IMG/VR virus record: IMGVR_UViG_3300042316_000197
Coordinates: 1-46,444 of that record
DNA from: a virus
Reading direction: 5' to 3' (one strand)
DNA: 46,444 bases
Position 1 is the first letter of the stretch, and every line of letters begins with the position of its first letter. This document shows positions 17,373 through 27,067 of the stretch, one piece after another. The notes beneath the pieces are model-generated. The model ran no database searches and was not told where the DNA came from. It saw only the letters and a list, made by a program, of their open reading frames with translations. A program made the translations under genes and the position numbers.

Positions 17373-19802
17373 TCATTCTTTATTTAATTGAATTTGTGTT
17401 TCGTTATCTGCTCTCTTCTTAATAATTATCCATCTACCCAAGTGGTCTCGGTCCTCTTCAGGCATTAGTCCTTCTTTGTATATAGCATAAGCTATCAGCC
17501 ATTTGTAGAACTTTGTCCTACTAATTGTCATCTTACCTCTTGAACCGTAGTCAGGATACTCATCGACAAACGTATGGTACAACTCGTTCTTATATAGTCT
17601 AACATTTGTAGGAAGCGCAGTACTCTTGTCATTGTTATCTACCAATCCAACCCACTCAATAAACTCGTGGCAAGTCTCTGCTGATAACTGTCTAATCTTT
17701 AAGTTTACAAACTTAGACTTAACTAATCCGTAAGTAAGATAGTAACTCAAACACCCAATCATATAGTTATCAAACTCACACCAATCATCATCATTCCAAT
17801 CTCCAAACATCATCTTTCCAAAATCGTCTCTTGGCGTGAAATCTAATGTGTAATACTGATGTAGTTCTAATTCCCATTTTCGTCTCGCAAATGAGTTCCC
17901 TGCACCTTTGATTGCGTAGTTAGTTGTTATTGCAACTTTTGGAGATTTGTTGAATGGTATCTTGATAGCGTCTTTATTCTTCTTCTCTAATGTCAACCCC
18001 TCAGTAATCACACTGAACAGTCTCTCAAAATCAAAATGTTTCTTGACATCATCAAAGCAAAGTATCTGCGTATCTGCCGATACCAACTGATAAGGAAATG
18101 ACTTCTCAAAGTTGAATGACTTACCATCAATTACTACGAGCTTCTTCATATTACTTAGAGCGTTCATAACCAATCCCTTTCCCGTACCGCCTTCAGGGTT
18201 ATCACTAATGACCTCATCGTTAAGTATCACAGCAGGACAGAAAGATAAGTTCTTATATCCGTGTTGAAGGAATCCTATCGTACTCTCCATTGTTTTTATC
18301 CTGTTCTCATCATTGCCATTTATGTTCGATATAAACTGTTTGAAATCACATTTACCTGTAACAGGACAAAGACTAAAGTTCCTATCAATCACGTGGTCTT
18401 TCCATACATATCCACCTAAGTCTAAGTAGTCAATAATCAAGATACCATCTTTAGTAATCTTTACAGCACAGTTTTTATAATACAAGTACGCTGAGTCTTT
18501 CTTATCTGCGATAAAGTATATGTCAATCGTTGATAGCATTGATAAGAAGTCGTCTTTAAAGTATCTCGTATTGTCTGCGAAGTAATTGTATATACTGTAA
18601 TCATCTAACTCTAACAAATGTGTAAGAACAAAATCCTTAATCTCTTTCTCTGATGTATGGTCAATAAGATTGTTAGTAACCTTTACAAATACATAATTCC
18701 TACTACCTTCAGGACAGAACTTATAGAAGCCTGAGTCCTCAAGGAATTGCTTGAATAGTATGTGCTCTATTTTTATAACTCCTTTATCGTTCTTTGTCCA
18801 AAATGTCATTTTAGAATTTTCATCCTCAACTTTATTTAGCACAGCATCGATAGTATCGCTATCCAAATTGGAGTCTTGCAGTTGGTAGCGAATTTCCTTT
18901 TTTGATACACCTCGTCTTAGCTTTGCACGTATCTGATTGATACGCTCCTCATCTTCATAATACTTAGTGCCGAAGTTAGCAGTATGTTTATAAGCTGAAT
19001 CAATTGTAATAGCTATCTCTGAAATTGAGAAGTCAGCAGTAGCAAATTGATTTAAGATATAAGCTGCAAGACTTTTGTTAACACCAAAATCATTGAAAGC
19101 CATAGCTAAAATATATGCATTGTGGTTTCTCTGACCTTCCTGCATAGGATATTTCTTCTCCCACCACTTAACCAATATCTCAACAATCTTATTCTCATCT
19201 GAGATTGGTATCGTTGCTTGGTCTCTAACTCTATTTACTTCAACGTATTCGGGTTCTTCAATTATATCCCAAACAGAGGAGTTCTCATTAACGTGAATTA
19301 AAGGGTCATAAGACTCGTAGCATACTCGACTAAGGTTTTTACTTGTTTTGTCGAAATAAGGGCTATTAAAATGCTTTTCTAAGCTATTGAAGTAGTTTGT
19401 ATGATTGTCTGCGTCAGCAGGAATCTTAACCAATACTTTTAAACCATTACCTGAAGGAGATATGAATACTGAAAATACATATTTGTTTTTCGATATAGTC
19501 TCTTTGTCTTGCAATAACTCTTTTTGTTTTGAATACCCATCAAAATCCAAACATACAAGTCCTGAGTGTTGGTCCAATGCGTTATCTAATCTTTTATTGA
19601 ACGTACCGCTGAAACAAATAGCGGGTAGTAATTTCTTAATCTCATTACGTTCTGATTTATTCTTTTCTTTTCTGATGCGTTGGACAATGTCTTTGGTAGC
19701 ACCTGTACCGTCTTTGATTCTCTCAAGTATTATATTAACATCCCTGAAGAACGGAGTGTCCGTATCTCGTATGTTTTGGAAGATTGTTACTGTGTGCGTC
19801 AT
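17373..19802 (-). CDS. Primase-helicase (VirE/BT4734-like N-terminus, SF3 helicase)
   Basis: An 809-aa replication protein. The N-terminal third has LVCLDFDGYSK (about 82-92) and FSVFISPSGNGLKVLVKI (about 109-126), which match the BT4734/VirE N-terminal and primase-like domains of Bacteroidota elements (acidic metal-binding residues and a G-N-G-L-K loop). The middle, with NHNAYILAMAFNDFGV, resembles the primase C-terminal helical domain. The C-terminal half is an SF3-type helicase: Walker A NPEGGTGKGL (about 530), Walker B ILCFDDVKK (about 575), and the sensor-like KVAITTNYAIKGAG. It likely makes primers and unwinds DNA at the phage origin. CGACAT-type repeats lie directly before its start. 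Confidence 0.85.
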   Translation of the reverse strand: MTHTVTIFQNIRDTDTPFFRDVNIILERIKDGTGATKDIVQRIRKEKNKSERNEIKKLLPAICFSGTFNKRLDNALDQHSGLVCLDFDGYSKQKELLQDKETISKNKYVFSVFISPSGNGLKVLVKIPADADNHTNYFNSLEKHFNSPYFDKTSKNLSRVCYESYDPLIHVNENSSVWDIIEEPEYVEVNRVRDQATIPISDENKIVEILVKWWEKKYPMQEGQRNHNAYILAMAFNDFGVNKSLAAYILNQFATADFSISEIAITIDSAYKHTANFGTKYYEDEERINQIRAKLRRGVSKKEIRYQLQDSNLDSDTIDAVLNKVEDENSKMTFWTKNDKGVIKIEHILFKQFLEDSGFYKFCPEGSRNYVFVKVTNNLIDHTSEKEIKDFVLTHLLELDDYSIYNYFADNTRYFKDDFLSMLSTIDIYFIADKKDSAYLYYKNCAVKITKDGILIIDYLDLGGYVWKDHVIDRNFSLCPVTGKCDFKQFISNINGNDENRIKTMESTIGFLQHGYKNLSFCPAVILNDEVISDNPEGGTGKGLVMNALSNMKKLVVIDGKSFNFEKSFPYQLVSADTQILCFDDVKKHFDFERLFSVITEGLTLEKKNKDAIKIPFNKSPKVAITTNYAIKGAGNSFARRKWELELHQYYTLDFTPRDDFGKMMFGDWNDDDWCEFDNYMIGCLSYYLTYGLVKSKFVNLKIRQLSAETCHEFIEWVGLVDNNDKSTALPTNVRLYKNELYHTFVDEYPDYGSRGKMTISRTKFYKWLIAYAIYKEGLMPEEDRDHLGRWIIIKKRADNETQIQLNKE

Positions 19803-20623: not shown

Positions 20624-20950
20624 TTAAAAGGGTAAATCTTGGTCGTCTTCTTCCTCTTCCTCTTGAACAGTTGGTTGTTGTTTAGTTTCTGCCTTTTTGT
20701 TGTAATTATCGACAGCACTTTCTTTAGGAGAACTATCATTCGCTTGAAAAGTATCCAAGTCCATATAGTAATTCCCACTACGAGCAGTCTTTACGTTTAG
20801 GTTTACCCATCCGCTTTTCTCGTGTTTCTTCATAAATGCAATTGCATCTTCTACTTTAATTGATAATCGACCCACTACGAAGTCGGGTGCTTTTTCGTTT
20901 CTCTTGAATACGAATCCATCTGCAAAAATCTTTTCTTGGTCTTGTGCCAT
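20624..20950 (-). CDS. SSB-like single-stranded DNA-binding protein
   Basis: A 108-aa protein: a small beta-rich body (GFVFKRNEKAPDFVVGRLSI, then GWVNLNVKTARSGNYYMDLD) with aromatic residues suited to stacking on bases, then a disordered linker and a very acidic tail ending EEEDDQDLPF. An acidic tail ending in D-x-PF-like residues is the hallmark of bacterial and phage SSBs, where it binds partner proteins. It lies beside the recombination pair and the replication genes. A predicted RNA pseudoknot sits 20 bases before its start (20971-21024). Confidence 0.75.
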   Translation of the reverse strand: MAQDQEKIFADGFVFKRNEKAPDFVVGRLSIKVEDAIAFMKKHEKSGWVNLNVKTARSGNYYMDLDTFQANDSSPKESAVDNYNKKAETKQQPTVQEEEEEDDQDLPF

Positions 20951-20970
20951 TGTAATAATTTATTTAGTTT

Positions 20971-21024
20971 ATCTCAGTCTATTTGAACCAAGCATAACTC
21001 CCTGAGATTAAAGCTATGCTTGGT
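20971..21024 (-). promoter_or_regulatory. Predicted H-type RNA pseudoknot in SSB-like gene leader
   Basis: In minus-strand order the leader has ACCAAGCATA, 6 bases, ATCTCAG, 5 bases, TATGCTTGGT, 9 bases, CTGAGAT. The first and third pair perfectly over 10 bp, the second and fourth over 7 bp, and the pairs interleave, which defines an H-type pseudoknot. A U/A-rich unstructured 20 bases leads to the start codon. T4 gene 32 (an SSB) controls its own translation through a leader pseudoknot next to an A/U-rich stretch; the same design here is inferred. It could instead end transcription of the SPFH gene, but no T-run follows. Confidence 0.6.
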
Positions 21025-21030
21025 GTATTA

Positions 21031-21873
21031 TTATTTATTTAAAAGAATACCTGATGCTGTTCCAAATACATTATTAGAACCATAAGGAGACTTACCTTTA
21101 TTTGCCCATACTCTTTCTGTCTCTGCTCTGTATAACTCAAGTAATTTAGGTTGCGATAAGATTTCTTTTGTTTTGGCATCGTATTGTGCTGCCTCGTAGT
21201 TACCTTTAGCTAATGCTACTTTCTTCAATGCTGTCTGCTCTGCCTGTTTAGTTTGAGAGATGATTGTTGCTGTTTCTTGCAACACGGCAATCTTTCTTTC
21301 AATAGCTTTCTTGTATGATGATGGTAATGCCATCTTTAAAATTGCAATATTATTAAGTGTAAAACCTTCTTTCTCTAATGATAAAGTTAATGTCTTTGTT
21401 ACATTTGCTTCATACACGTTTCTATGTTGTAATAAACTATCTGATGCAAAATTAACAGCGTTATCTAAAAGTTCTTTTCTAACAATTGTTCTTACTCTTG
21501 TATCTATTAAATCATTCATATCAACTCTATACTTGATAAACAACTCTGACGCTCTTGCTCTTTGAAGTTGTAAGTTTACAGATACATCAAGTCCGAATGT
21601 AGCCCCATCTGATGAGGTTACGTCAATATGTTCATCTGTTTCTGAACCCTCTTGATTGTCTGCGGTCCAAACTTTATGTTGAACTGATGTTGGATACATA
21701 AATACATCCTGTGTTGGTGGGAAGTAGAATATAAATCCTGATTCCATTTGGATATTTGGAACTCCTTTGTCGTTACCTATTTGGTCAACTACTAATGCCA
21801 CTTCTGATGAGTCGGCTGTTGTGCAAGATGCTACTGAAATTGCTACTAAAAATGCTAATGCTAATTTTTTCAT
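21031..21873 (-). CDS. SPFH (prohibitin/band 7) lipoprotein
   Basis: A 280-aa protein with a lipoprotein signal peptide (MKKLALAFLVAISVASC, lipobox VASC with C17) and an SPFH-type domain after it: VDVTSSDG-like strand with FGLDVSVNLQL (about 90-105), VRTIVRKELLDNAVNFASDSLL (about 127-150), and the Ala/Glu/Lys-rich coiled-coil tail (about 190-255). Band 7 proteins form large rings at membranes. A signal for lipid attachment means it is exported to the inner or outer membrane. Its place in an early block next to a two-span membrane protein suggests a membrane-acting role, maybe exclusion of other phages or protection from proteases (inference). Confidence 0.8.
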   Translation of the reverse strand: MKKLALAFLVAISVASCTTADSSEVALVVDQIGNDKGVPNIQMESGFIFYFPPTQDVFMYPTSVQHKVWTADNQEGSETDEHIDVTSSDGATFGLDVSVNLQLQRARASELFIKYRVDMNDLIDTRVRTIVRKELLDNAVNFASDSLLQHRNVYEANVTKTLTLSLEKEGFTLNNIAILKMALPSSYKKAIERKIAVLQETATIISQTKQAEQTALKKVALAKGNYEAAQYDAKTKEILSQPKLLELYRAETERVWANKGKSPYGSNNVFGTASGILLNK

Positions 21874-22051: not shown

Positions 22052-22798
22052 TTAATATAAAAATTCATCAATGTAATAATTGTCAATGTCGTCTGAAGGA
22101 TTGGCTGAGAAGTATCTCTGATACATATCAATAGCTCGTGCTACTTTTTCCTCGCCACCTTTTACAAATTCCTCAGTTGGTTTAAATACCGCAAGGATAC
22201 CTGTTACCTTGTCGATAACGTAGAACACTAAAGGCTTACCGAATAGTTTTTGGTATATGTAGCACTGTGAATCGTAATTATATTTCTTAGCGTTCCACTT
22301 GAACTTTTGTATATCACTCGTGGTCTTCAAGTCAATCACACATTCGTTAGTAACGATGTCTGCTTTACCTTTCCACATCATACCTTGAATCTCTCCAACA
22401 GCAGGAACCTCAAACTGATTACCGTCTTTATATATCTCCTCAAAAAATGCGATATTACCGTTGATAATCTTTACAAGACCCTTGACTTCATCTATTTCCT
22501 TTTTAAGCAAACAGAACGGTAATTTGTTAGCTATGCAGAACTCTTTGTATTCCTTAGTAGTTCGAGTACTTACATCAACAAACAATACATCTTTAATCTT
22601 CTCACGTTCTAAGATAGATTGATGAAAGTATCTGCCTTCAGCAAACGCTTTATTATCTTCACGTGGCTTACCGAACTCTTTCGGGTTCTCTAATAATGTT
22701 CCGATGTCTGAGTTGGATAAATAATTCTTTCCGATACCTGAGTAATACTCAGTATCGTTTCTTAATAAATCAAGTATCTGTTCGTTTACTACTGCCAT
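22052..22798 (-). CDS. RecB-type PD-(D/E)XK exonuclease (recombination partner)
   Basis: A 248-aa protein with the λ-exonuclease/RecE-like core: FAEGRYFHQSILE (helix with H), GMMWKGKADIVTNECVIDLKTTSD with catalytic D...D-x-K (about 130-152), and YNYDSQCYIYQKLF (QxxxY motif, about 165-178). It resembles phage exodeoxyribonuclease VIII-type nucleases that make 3' single-strand tails. It is directly coupled (TAATG overlap) to the annealing protein gene, the normal arrangement for a phage recombination pair. Confidence 0.8.
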   Translation of the reverse strand: MAVVNEQILDLLRNDTEYYSGIGKNYLSNSDIGTLLENPKEFGKPREDNKAFAEGRYFHQSILEREKIKDVLFVDVSTRTTKEYKEFCIANKLPFCLLKKEIDEVKGLVKIINGNIAFFEEIYKDGNQFEVPAVGEIQGMMWKGKADIVTNECVIDLKTTSDIQKFKWNAKKYNYDSQCYIYQKLFGKPLVFYVIDKVTGILAVFKPTEEFVKGGEEKVARAIDMYQRYFSANPSDDIDNYYIDEFLY

Positions 22799-23469
22799 TA
22801 TGCTGTTGTTTTTATGATGATTGCTATTTCTTTCTTAAGAGCAGGACTGATTTTGTATTTACGATTTAACTGCGTTCCGATTTTCTCCATACCTAACTCT
22901 TTATTAGCTGTAACGTATTTAACTACATTAATCCAATTGTCGGTATCTTTAATAAGTTGAGGTAATTCAGTAGCTTCTTCTTTCTTTAGATTGGCTGCTG
23001 CAACAGGAGCTGTAGGTTCAGTTGGCGTATCAGGCAAGTCTTCTCCTGCATAGATATAAATACCCATACCAAACATAGCAAGGTTCTTAACCAAGCATCT
23101 CATTAATGTTTTGTTGATGTCAAACATTGTAGCGGCTTCTACTGACTTCTCTGCGTATCTTGTAGTGTAGCTATATGGCGTAGCTTTCATAGCTTTGTTG
23201 GCGCCATCCATAACAGGTAGCCACATTCCTAAAGTTTCTTCATCTATAGTGACTTCAGTGACCACCATATATCCAAGATTCTCATCGTAGAAATAAGGCT
23301 TCCCTGTACTTGGGTCTGTTACCACTACGTACTTTGCATCAGGACAAGCCTTCTTAGCTTCTGACCACGCCCACGCCCAACTTAAATAAGTTAATCCGCT
23401 TTTCTTTTCTACCTTTGCGTTCACATTGATAGCTGACAATTTCTCGAATGTCGATTGTTTTAATTCCAT
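22798..23469 (-). CDS. Single-strand annealing protein (DUF1071/Sak-like)
   Basis: A 223-aa protein. Residues about 10-75 read SAINVNAKVEKKSGLTYLSW...WSEAKKACPDAKY and about 88-150 VVTEVTIDEETLGMWLPVMD...NKTLMRCLVKNLAMFGMG, the typical DUF1071 pattern of phage annealing proteins related to Erf/RecT functions. The last 70 residues are a variable tail. With the exonuclease downstream it would anneal complementary strands during recombination-dependent replication. The ATG is preceded by an ATCAAATCAAATCAAATG leader. Confidence 0.85.
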   Translation of the reverse strand: MELKQSTFEKLSAINVNAKVEKKSGLTYLSWAWAWSEAKKACPDAKYVVVTDPSTGKPYFYDENLGYMVVTEVTIDEETLGMWLPVMDGANKAMKATPYSYTTRYAEKSVEAATMFDINKTLMRCLVKNLAMFGMGIYIYAGEDLPDTPTEPTAPVAAANLKKEEATELPQLIKDTDNWINVVKYVTANKELGMEKIGTQLNRKYKISPALKKEIAIIIKTTA

Positions 23470-26814: not shown

Positions 26815-26835
26815 TTGATTTAATTTAAAATTAGT

Positions 26836-26901
26836 GGTCGATAGGGGAATCGAACCCCTATCTCGAGGCAGCCTCGATGTTACCAATTACACCAATCGAC
26901 C
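26836..26901 (-). tRNA. tRNA-like element A with 3-base anticodon loop
   Basis: Minus strand. A 7-bp acceptor (GGTCGAT with ATCGACC), a D-arm (GTGT/ACAT with an AATTGGTA loop) and a perfect T-arm (AGGGG, TTCGATT, CCCCT) are all present. The anticodon arm is CGAGG, CTG, CCTCG: a perfect 5-bp stem closed by a 3-base loop instead of seven. Read as a 7-base loop (GGCTGCC) the middle triplet is CTG (Gln) but position 33 is G, not U, and the stem is only 3-4 bp. Total length is 66 bases. So it may be a damaged or repurposed tRNA(Gln)-type gene. No CCA is encoded. Confidence 0.55.
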
Positions 26902-26979
26902 TGTACGGAGTTTTTGTCAATCTCTCTTGGGTTCTTCCGTTGTTACCACCAAGTTCATTCGGTAGCTATCCGACACCGT

Positions 26980-27067
26980 GGGCAAGGCAGGAATCGAACC
27001 TGCATTTACGTCTAATCTTGTCTAGCCGACCATACCCAACAAAGCGTTTCCATTTCGCCACTTGCCC
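26980..27067 (-). tRNA. tRNA-like element B with enlarged anticodon loop
   Basis: Minus strand. 7-bp acceptor (GGGCAAG with CTTGCCC), D-arm (GCG/CGC with AAATGGAAA loop), perfect T-arm (GCAGG, TTCGATT, CCTGC). Between D- and T-arms are 40 bases. The best local fold is a stem TTTGT/ACAAG (one G-U pair) with a 17-base loop, then a 13-base variable region (ATT...AAT could pair). Length of 88 suits a class II tRNA (Leu, Ser, Tyr type), but no standard 7-base anticodon loop with U33 is found, so the isotype cannot be called. Confidence 0.5.

Follow-up and report, generated by a model that had tools for sequence, protein, structure and literature searches.

The leader pseudoknot of T4 gene 32 is the textbook case of a single-strand DNA-binding protein (SSB) controlling its own translation, and the locus described here raises the question of whether an unrelated phage group uses a similar RNA in front of a probable SSB gene. 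The window, by which we mean the whole stretch that was analyzed, is 46,444 nt of virus DNA (IMG/VR record IMGVR_UViG_3300042316_000197). The leader of a 108-aa SSB-like gene, read on the minus strand, can form an H-type pseudoknot, which runs 5' to 3' as ACCAAGCAUAGCUUU-A-AUCUCAG-GGAGUUAUGCUUGGU-UCAAAUAGA-CUGAGAU-(20 nt)-AUG. Its parts are listed in order of transcription, followed by the gene itself.

21010-21024, minus strand: stem 1, 5' strand, ACCAAGCAUAGCUUU (from sequence, folding and covariation)
21009, minus strand: loop 1, a single A, the same in 69 of 69 leaders
21002-21008, minus strand: stem 2, 5' strand, AUCUCAG (7 bp, from covariation)
20987-21001, minus strand: stem 1, 3' strand, GGAGUUAUGCUUGGU, with a zero-nucleotide junction to stem 2
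20978-20986, minus strand: loop 3, UCAAAUAGA, 9 nt, with the 3' end AYAGA in 65 of 69 leaders
20971-20977, minus strand: stem 2, 3' strand, CUGAGAU (from covariation)
20951-20970, minus strand: A/U-rich spacer of 20 nt up to the start codon, 19-21 nt long in 57 of 69 leaders
20948-20950, minus strand: ATG of the SSB-like gene
20624-20950, minus strand: SSB-like gene, 108 aa, a compact core and an acidic tail ending in QDLPF

The four interleaved segments of the original prediction lie where it had placed them, on the minus strand, and its 7-bp stem 2 stands. Stem 1 had been given as 10 bp, but those pairs continue inward through GCTTT/GGAGT, so that the stem has 15 bp when G.U pairs are counted; this reduces loop 1 to a single A and the junction to 0 nt. 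The hairpin loop of stem 1 has eight nucleotides, one A and seven that pair downstream. The pseudoknot ends 20 bases before the ATG, as predicted. Stem 1 alone was calculated at -20.7 kcal/mol (z of -4.4 compared to shuffles) and stem 2 as a duplex at -7.6 kcal/mol. Loop 3 can span stem 1, since a simple bound puts the distance at less than 55 Å (42 Å of rise and half a helix turn), compared to a reach of about 60 Å for 9 nt. An A/U-rich stretch was also predicted before the ATG. It is present, with 90% A+T in the spacer, but it is not a distinctive mark: 18 other gene leaders checked in the window had 55-95% A+T. Because other leaders of the genome are equally rich, the spacer does not provide evidence for an operator.

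In a geometric search, the pseudoknot scored 22.25, and it was the sole site to score at least 18 on either strand of the 46-kb window. It could be suspected that both the hairpin and its second stem arose by chance, as low-complexity A/T-rich leaders do yield weak pseudoknots, and 25 of 3,000 dinucleotide shuffles of the leader scored 15 or more. None of the 3,000 reached 20, and the compensatory changes in the 69 leaders described below refute a chance structure; we give this explanation a negligible probability.

The same pseudoknot precedes the same gene in 69 distinct IMG/VR leaders from uncultured phages. Relatives of the window protein were collected from IMG/VR by protein search, which gave 57, and by wider profile searches, which gave more than 500. 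A model-free finder, applied to 118 distinct leaders, split them cleanly into 69 with the structure (scores of at least 15.5) and others at 14.5 or below. Stem 2 had 7 bp, loop 1 was one A and the junction was zero in all 69 leaders. The finder slightly favored this 7/1/0 combination and also allowed 6-8 bp for stem 2, 1-3 nt for loop 1 and 0-2 nt for the junction. Stem 1 ranged from 14 to 16 bp and loop 3 was mostly 8-10 nt, with conserved letters both in loop 3 and at the junction of the two stems.

The original prediction had named covariation as a check, and both stems do covary in independent phages. Stem 2 was found in 21 sequence versions, none with a broken pair. In an alignment of 41 distinct leaders, 91.8% of cells were paired and double changes were seen at 18 of the 22 pairs; none of 500 shuffles matched this pairing, and sliding the partners by one column reduced it to 50%. 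When 34 disjoint leader pairs were compared, stem 2 showed 17 double changes that kept pairing (1.6 expected), five G.U changes and no breaks. Stem 1 was looser, with 20 kept (12.6 double changes expected) and 21 single breaks. A covariance model trained on the stem 1 pairs only was then tried on 37 loci outside the training set, and in the majority it located the element immediately in front of the start codon. New forms of stem 2 appeared in these loci: GGCGUAG/CUACGCC, GCCCCAA/UUGGGGC, GGUAUGG/CCAUACC and GGCACAG/CUGUGCC. At the level of sequence comparison, these data show that the leader pseudoknot is maintained by selection.

The remaining 49 of the 118 sampled leaders, from divergent family members, did not score as bearing a pseudoknot. 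Since many divergent members are without such a structure, the SSB-like protein evidently does not need it in general. On a primase/helicase tree, a single change accounts for the structure, with moderate branch support (85/57). The absence in divergent members parallels the T4-like phages, among which the gene 32 pseudoknot is missing even from some relatives of T4, such as RB49, whose gene 32 leader lacks it (PMC3014915).

A strong intergenic hairpin at a place where inserts accumulate could also terminate transcription or act at the DNA level, for example as an origin or a site of recombination. In 67 of 69 leaders, a U.G pair occupies the second position from the junction, and over all pairs the sense strand is paired in 95.8% of cells, compared to 79% for the opposite strand. 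Because of this U.G pair and the sense-strand bias, the data speak for an element that acts as RNA and not as DNA. The fixed distance to the AUG and a selection on stem 2 as strong as that on stem 1 also argue against the DNA-level and terminator readings, to which we attach a very small probability. A terminator was ruled out since no such site was found in the region, and a DNA-level element was ruled out by the G.U pairs and strand bias.

The element is linked to one gene. All of the 28 phage contigs examined were positive, with one element at the SSB-like gene, and one contig had an additional tandem copy. A scan of IMG/VR with the exact pattern gave 30 matches on 30 contigs. Six of these contigs were new, and the gene after the element was the SSB-like gene in each; the others were already known through the SSB-like protein search. 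The element was found before no other gene of the Sak-exonuclease-primase/helicase module. The order of the genes does not vary: Sak annealing protein, exonuclease, element with SSB-like gene, primase/helicase and helicase. Sak is an annealing protein of the Rad52-like kind. The neighboring genes in the window are the following.

22798-23469, minus strand: Sak single-strand annealing protein
22052-22798, minus strand: exonuclease of the DUF3799/RecE type, the normal upstream neighbor of the SSB-like gene
21031-21873, minus strand: Band 7/SPFH lipoprotein gene between the exonuclease and the pseudoknot, also in the near twin L001; it lies outside the element
17373-19802, minus strand: primase/helicase, the conserved downstream neighbor

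Inserts gather between the exonuclease gene and the pseudoknot, and none separates the pseudoknot from the ATG. They include the Band 7 lipoprotein gene in the window, a methylase-like gene in L097 and tRNA-like elements elsewhere. L097 carries an extra pseudoknot copy of the window's sequence type (1169-1244). A short broken frame and a tRNA-like element come next, and then a second pseudoknot with an intact gene. This tandem arrangement is a recombination scar. In bacterial genomes, the search found only three contigs, all of one Aliivibrio MAG and probably phage DNA. Only chance matches were obtained when the leader was compared to named phages by blastn, and a literature search found no description of this leader element.

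The identity of the protein was examined next, as the comparison with gene 32 depends on it. The SSB-like protein had no match in Pfam, including the OB-fold domain PF00436, or in NCBIfam, no convincing match in PHROG and no match to gp32-type or other SSB families. One relative matched phrog_4932, 'single strand DNA binding', weakly (E of 0.0018). AlphaFold gave a pLDDT of 52 with a shallow alignment; a core-only run with 107 rows gave a 73-aa model with a pLDDT of 88 and the order beta-beta-alpha-beta-beta. A PDB fold search with this core model returned no solved counterpart, and only four viral models were matched in fold searches, apparently of the same kind and without names. The core is only slightly basic, with a median net charge of +1. 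The C-terminal tip resembles the acidic tip of bacterial SSBs (DDDIPF kind): 132 of 138 distinct proteins end in PF, and at least two acidic residues stand just before it in 127. A search of 24 phage contigs for PF00436 SSB genes was negative, and the control genomes were positive.

There is a precedent for such a pair of genes. In HK620, the annealing protein Sak4 is encoded beside a divergent SSB, and the partnership depends on the acidic PF tip at the SSB C terminus (PMC5928155). The module described here is similar in having an annealing protein gene near a divergent, here putative, SSB with an acidic PF tip. Sak4 is RecA-like and its SSB belongs to another family (DUF669), whereas the annealing protein here is Sak, and a leader pseudoknot was not encountered in the passages considered on the HK620 module. 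The acidic PF tip, the absence of a PF00436 SSB from the contigs and this precedent make it likely that the protein is an SSB, on the basis of its acidic LPF tail and gene context. The results also provide a functional lead for a widespread and unannotated phage protein family.

How such a leader might work is known from T4, where gp32 first binds at the pseudoknot and from there covers the unstructured region of the start site, with excess protein repressing translation and ssDNA relieving it (PMC535899, PMC3014915). Autogenous repression by the SSB-like protein is, with moderate confidence, our best explanation of the leader pseudoknot, which would be a cis-acting translational operator. The pseudoknot has its 3' edge some 20 nt before the AUG, about where the ribosome footprint would begin, and leaves the start site open. 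SSB-like protein in excess over the free ssDNA from replication and recombination would use the pseudoknot as a specific site of nucleation, from which it would spread across the unstructured spacer. Ribosomes would then be kept off the SSB-like gene itself, and perhaps off the downstream primase/helicase gene too. When ssDNA appears, the protein would leave the mRNA and synthesis would resume. We consider this the most likely mode since the start site is open and protein nucleated at the pseudoknot would block initiation, which the fold alone need not do. The ligand and the direction of control are what we infer, and the position by the start codon, the single copy per phage and the attachment to a single gene fit cis-acting autoregulation.

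Next in rank is another reader of the same element. Sak, the primase/helicase, a host RNA-binding protein or the ribosome, through a standby or start-site function, could use it to control the same gene. Position and spacing indicate translation control and name no ligand, the conserved letters in loop 3 and at the stem 1/stem 2 junction could be read by a protein, and the Sak and primase/helicase genes are always nearby. Against this, attachment to one gene, with no copy before other genes of the module, is a hallmark of autogenous control, and in T4, T2 and RB69 it is the SSB itself that regulates its gene. We therefore regard another reader as rather unlikely.

Small H-type pseudoknots with conserved loops are also a known layout of riboswitches, which could suggest that the leader senses a metabolite. 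The leader had no Rfam match even at a permissive threshold, it accompanies a single class of gene that is not metabolic, and its start site is free and not sequestered, which make a metabolite riboswitch very unlikely.

Another possible explanation is that the pseudoknot stabilizes the mRNA, shielding the 5' end of a processed transcript from nucleases. Of the 69 leaders, 24 have a tRNA-like element immediately before the pseudoknot, and 3' processing of the tRNA type would leave the pseudoknot at the 5' end. Similarly, T4 gene 32 mRNA is cut at -71, a few nucleotides ahead of the pseudoknot, which lies at -67 (PMC3014915). The other 45 leaders, including that of the window, have no tRNA-like element there, and an element that served stability alone would not be expected to keep so narrow a distance to the AUG, so this role seems improbable. 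An extended form of the autogenous model joins the two: an SSB with a fold absent from the PDB would have independently evolved gp32-style autogenous repression that relies on a pseudoknot with matching loop geometry, and in about one-third of the phages processing at an upstream tRNA mimic would put the operator at the mRNA 5' end. This combination is speculative, and as a whole we think it doubtful.

The likeness to gene 32, on which the original prediction drew, is closer than had been recognized. Both groups have an H-type pseudoknot in the leader of a gene for a phage ssDNA-binding protein, which is putative here. In T2, the gene 32 RNA (gcugaccagcuaugaggucauacaucgucauagcac) forms a 5-bp and a 7-bp stem with a loop of 7 nt (PMC5684407); loop 1 is therefore one A and there is no junction. 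The one-A loop 1, 7-bp stem 2 and zero junction are found in all 69 of our leaders. In operators of the T4 type, an unstructured A/U-rich stretch with UUAAA/UAAA repeats covers the start site; the spacer here is A/U-rich, as are the other gene leaders checked in the window. The groups differ in stem 1, which is 14-16 bp here and 5 bp in T2 (three times longer in the window), and in loop 3, mostly 8-10 nt here compared to 7. The pseudoknot ends 20 nt from the AUG here, whereas that of T4 starts at about -67 and is followed by more than 40 unstructured nucleotides. Autoregulation is proven in the T4 group and is proposed here from sequence.

No sequence shared with T4 gene 32 was seen, and no protein match marked the protein as a gp32 homologue. 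The element is thus not a member of the gene 32 operator family and works like that operator if the model is right. Since neither shared sequence nor protein homology was seen, the likeness suggests convergence of unrelated phages on the same solution. If true, the one-A/7-bp geometry in front of a probable SSB gene in another phage group, unrelated to that of T4, would allow convergence to be tested. It would also reveal whether an ssDNA-binding protein requires this shape to distinguish its mRNA from other nucleic acids, and dozens of natural pseudoknot variants are on offer for binding studies.

Known RNA families were ruled out, as the leader had no Rfam match at the gathering score or at the permissive one. 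The STAXI motif (RF01728) is a pseudoknot often found near ssDNA-binding protein genes (PMC2864571). In contrast to our element, it is enterobacterial, repeated two or three times and near several kinds of DNA-handling genes.

Two other structures were observed upstream of the pseudoknot in relatives. One is a perfect hairpin, GTGTCTTYRAAGACAC, which is recurrent and intergenic (L003, L004, L005, L008, L010, L014, L021, L034, L054 and others) and absent from the window. The other is the tRNA-like element (L009, L015, L016, L019, L020, L022, L024-L026, L028-L032, L035, L039, L042 and others), which is 69-157 nt long and mostly ends 2-4 nt before stem 1. It has the acceptor AGTCAGG/CCTGACT, a good T arm and a hypervariable middle, and a GNAA tetraloop takes the place of the anticodon loop in L022, L024 and L032. 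These elements are possibly tRNA mimics that serve as RNA-processing signals. In the window, two Rfam tRNA matches were found on the minus strand, at 26835-26901 and 26979-27067. The first has a 3-nt loop for the anticodon loop, lies directly before a short A-rich start region and resembles the tRNA-like elements of the relatives.
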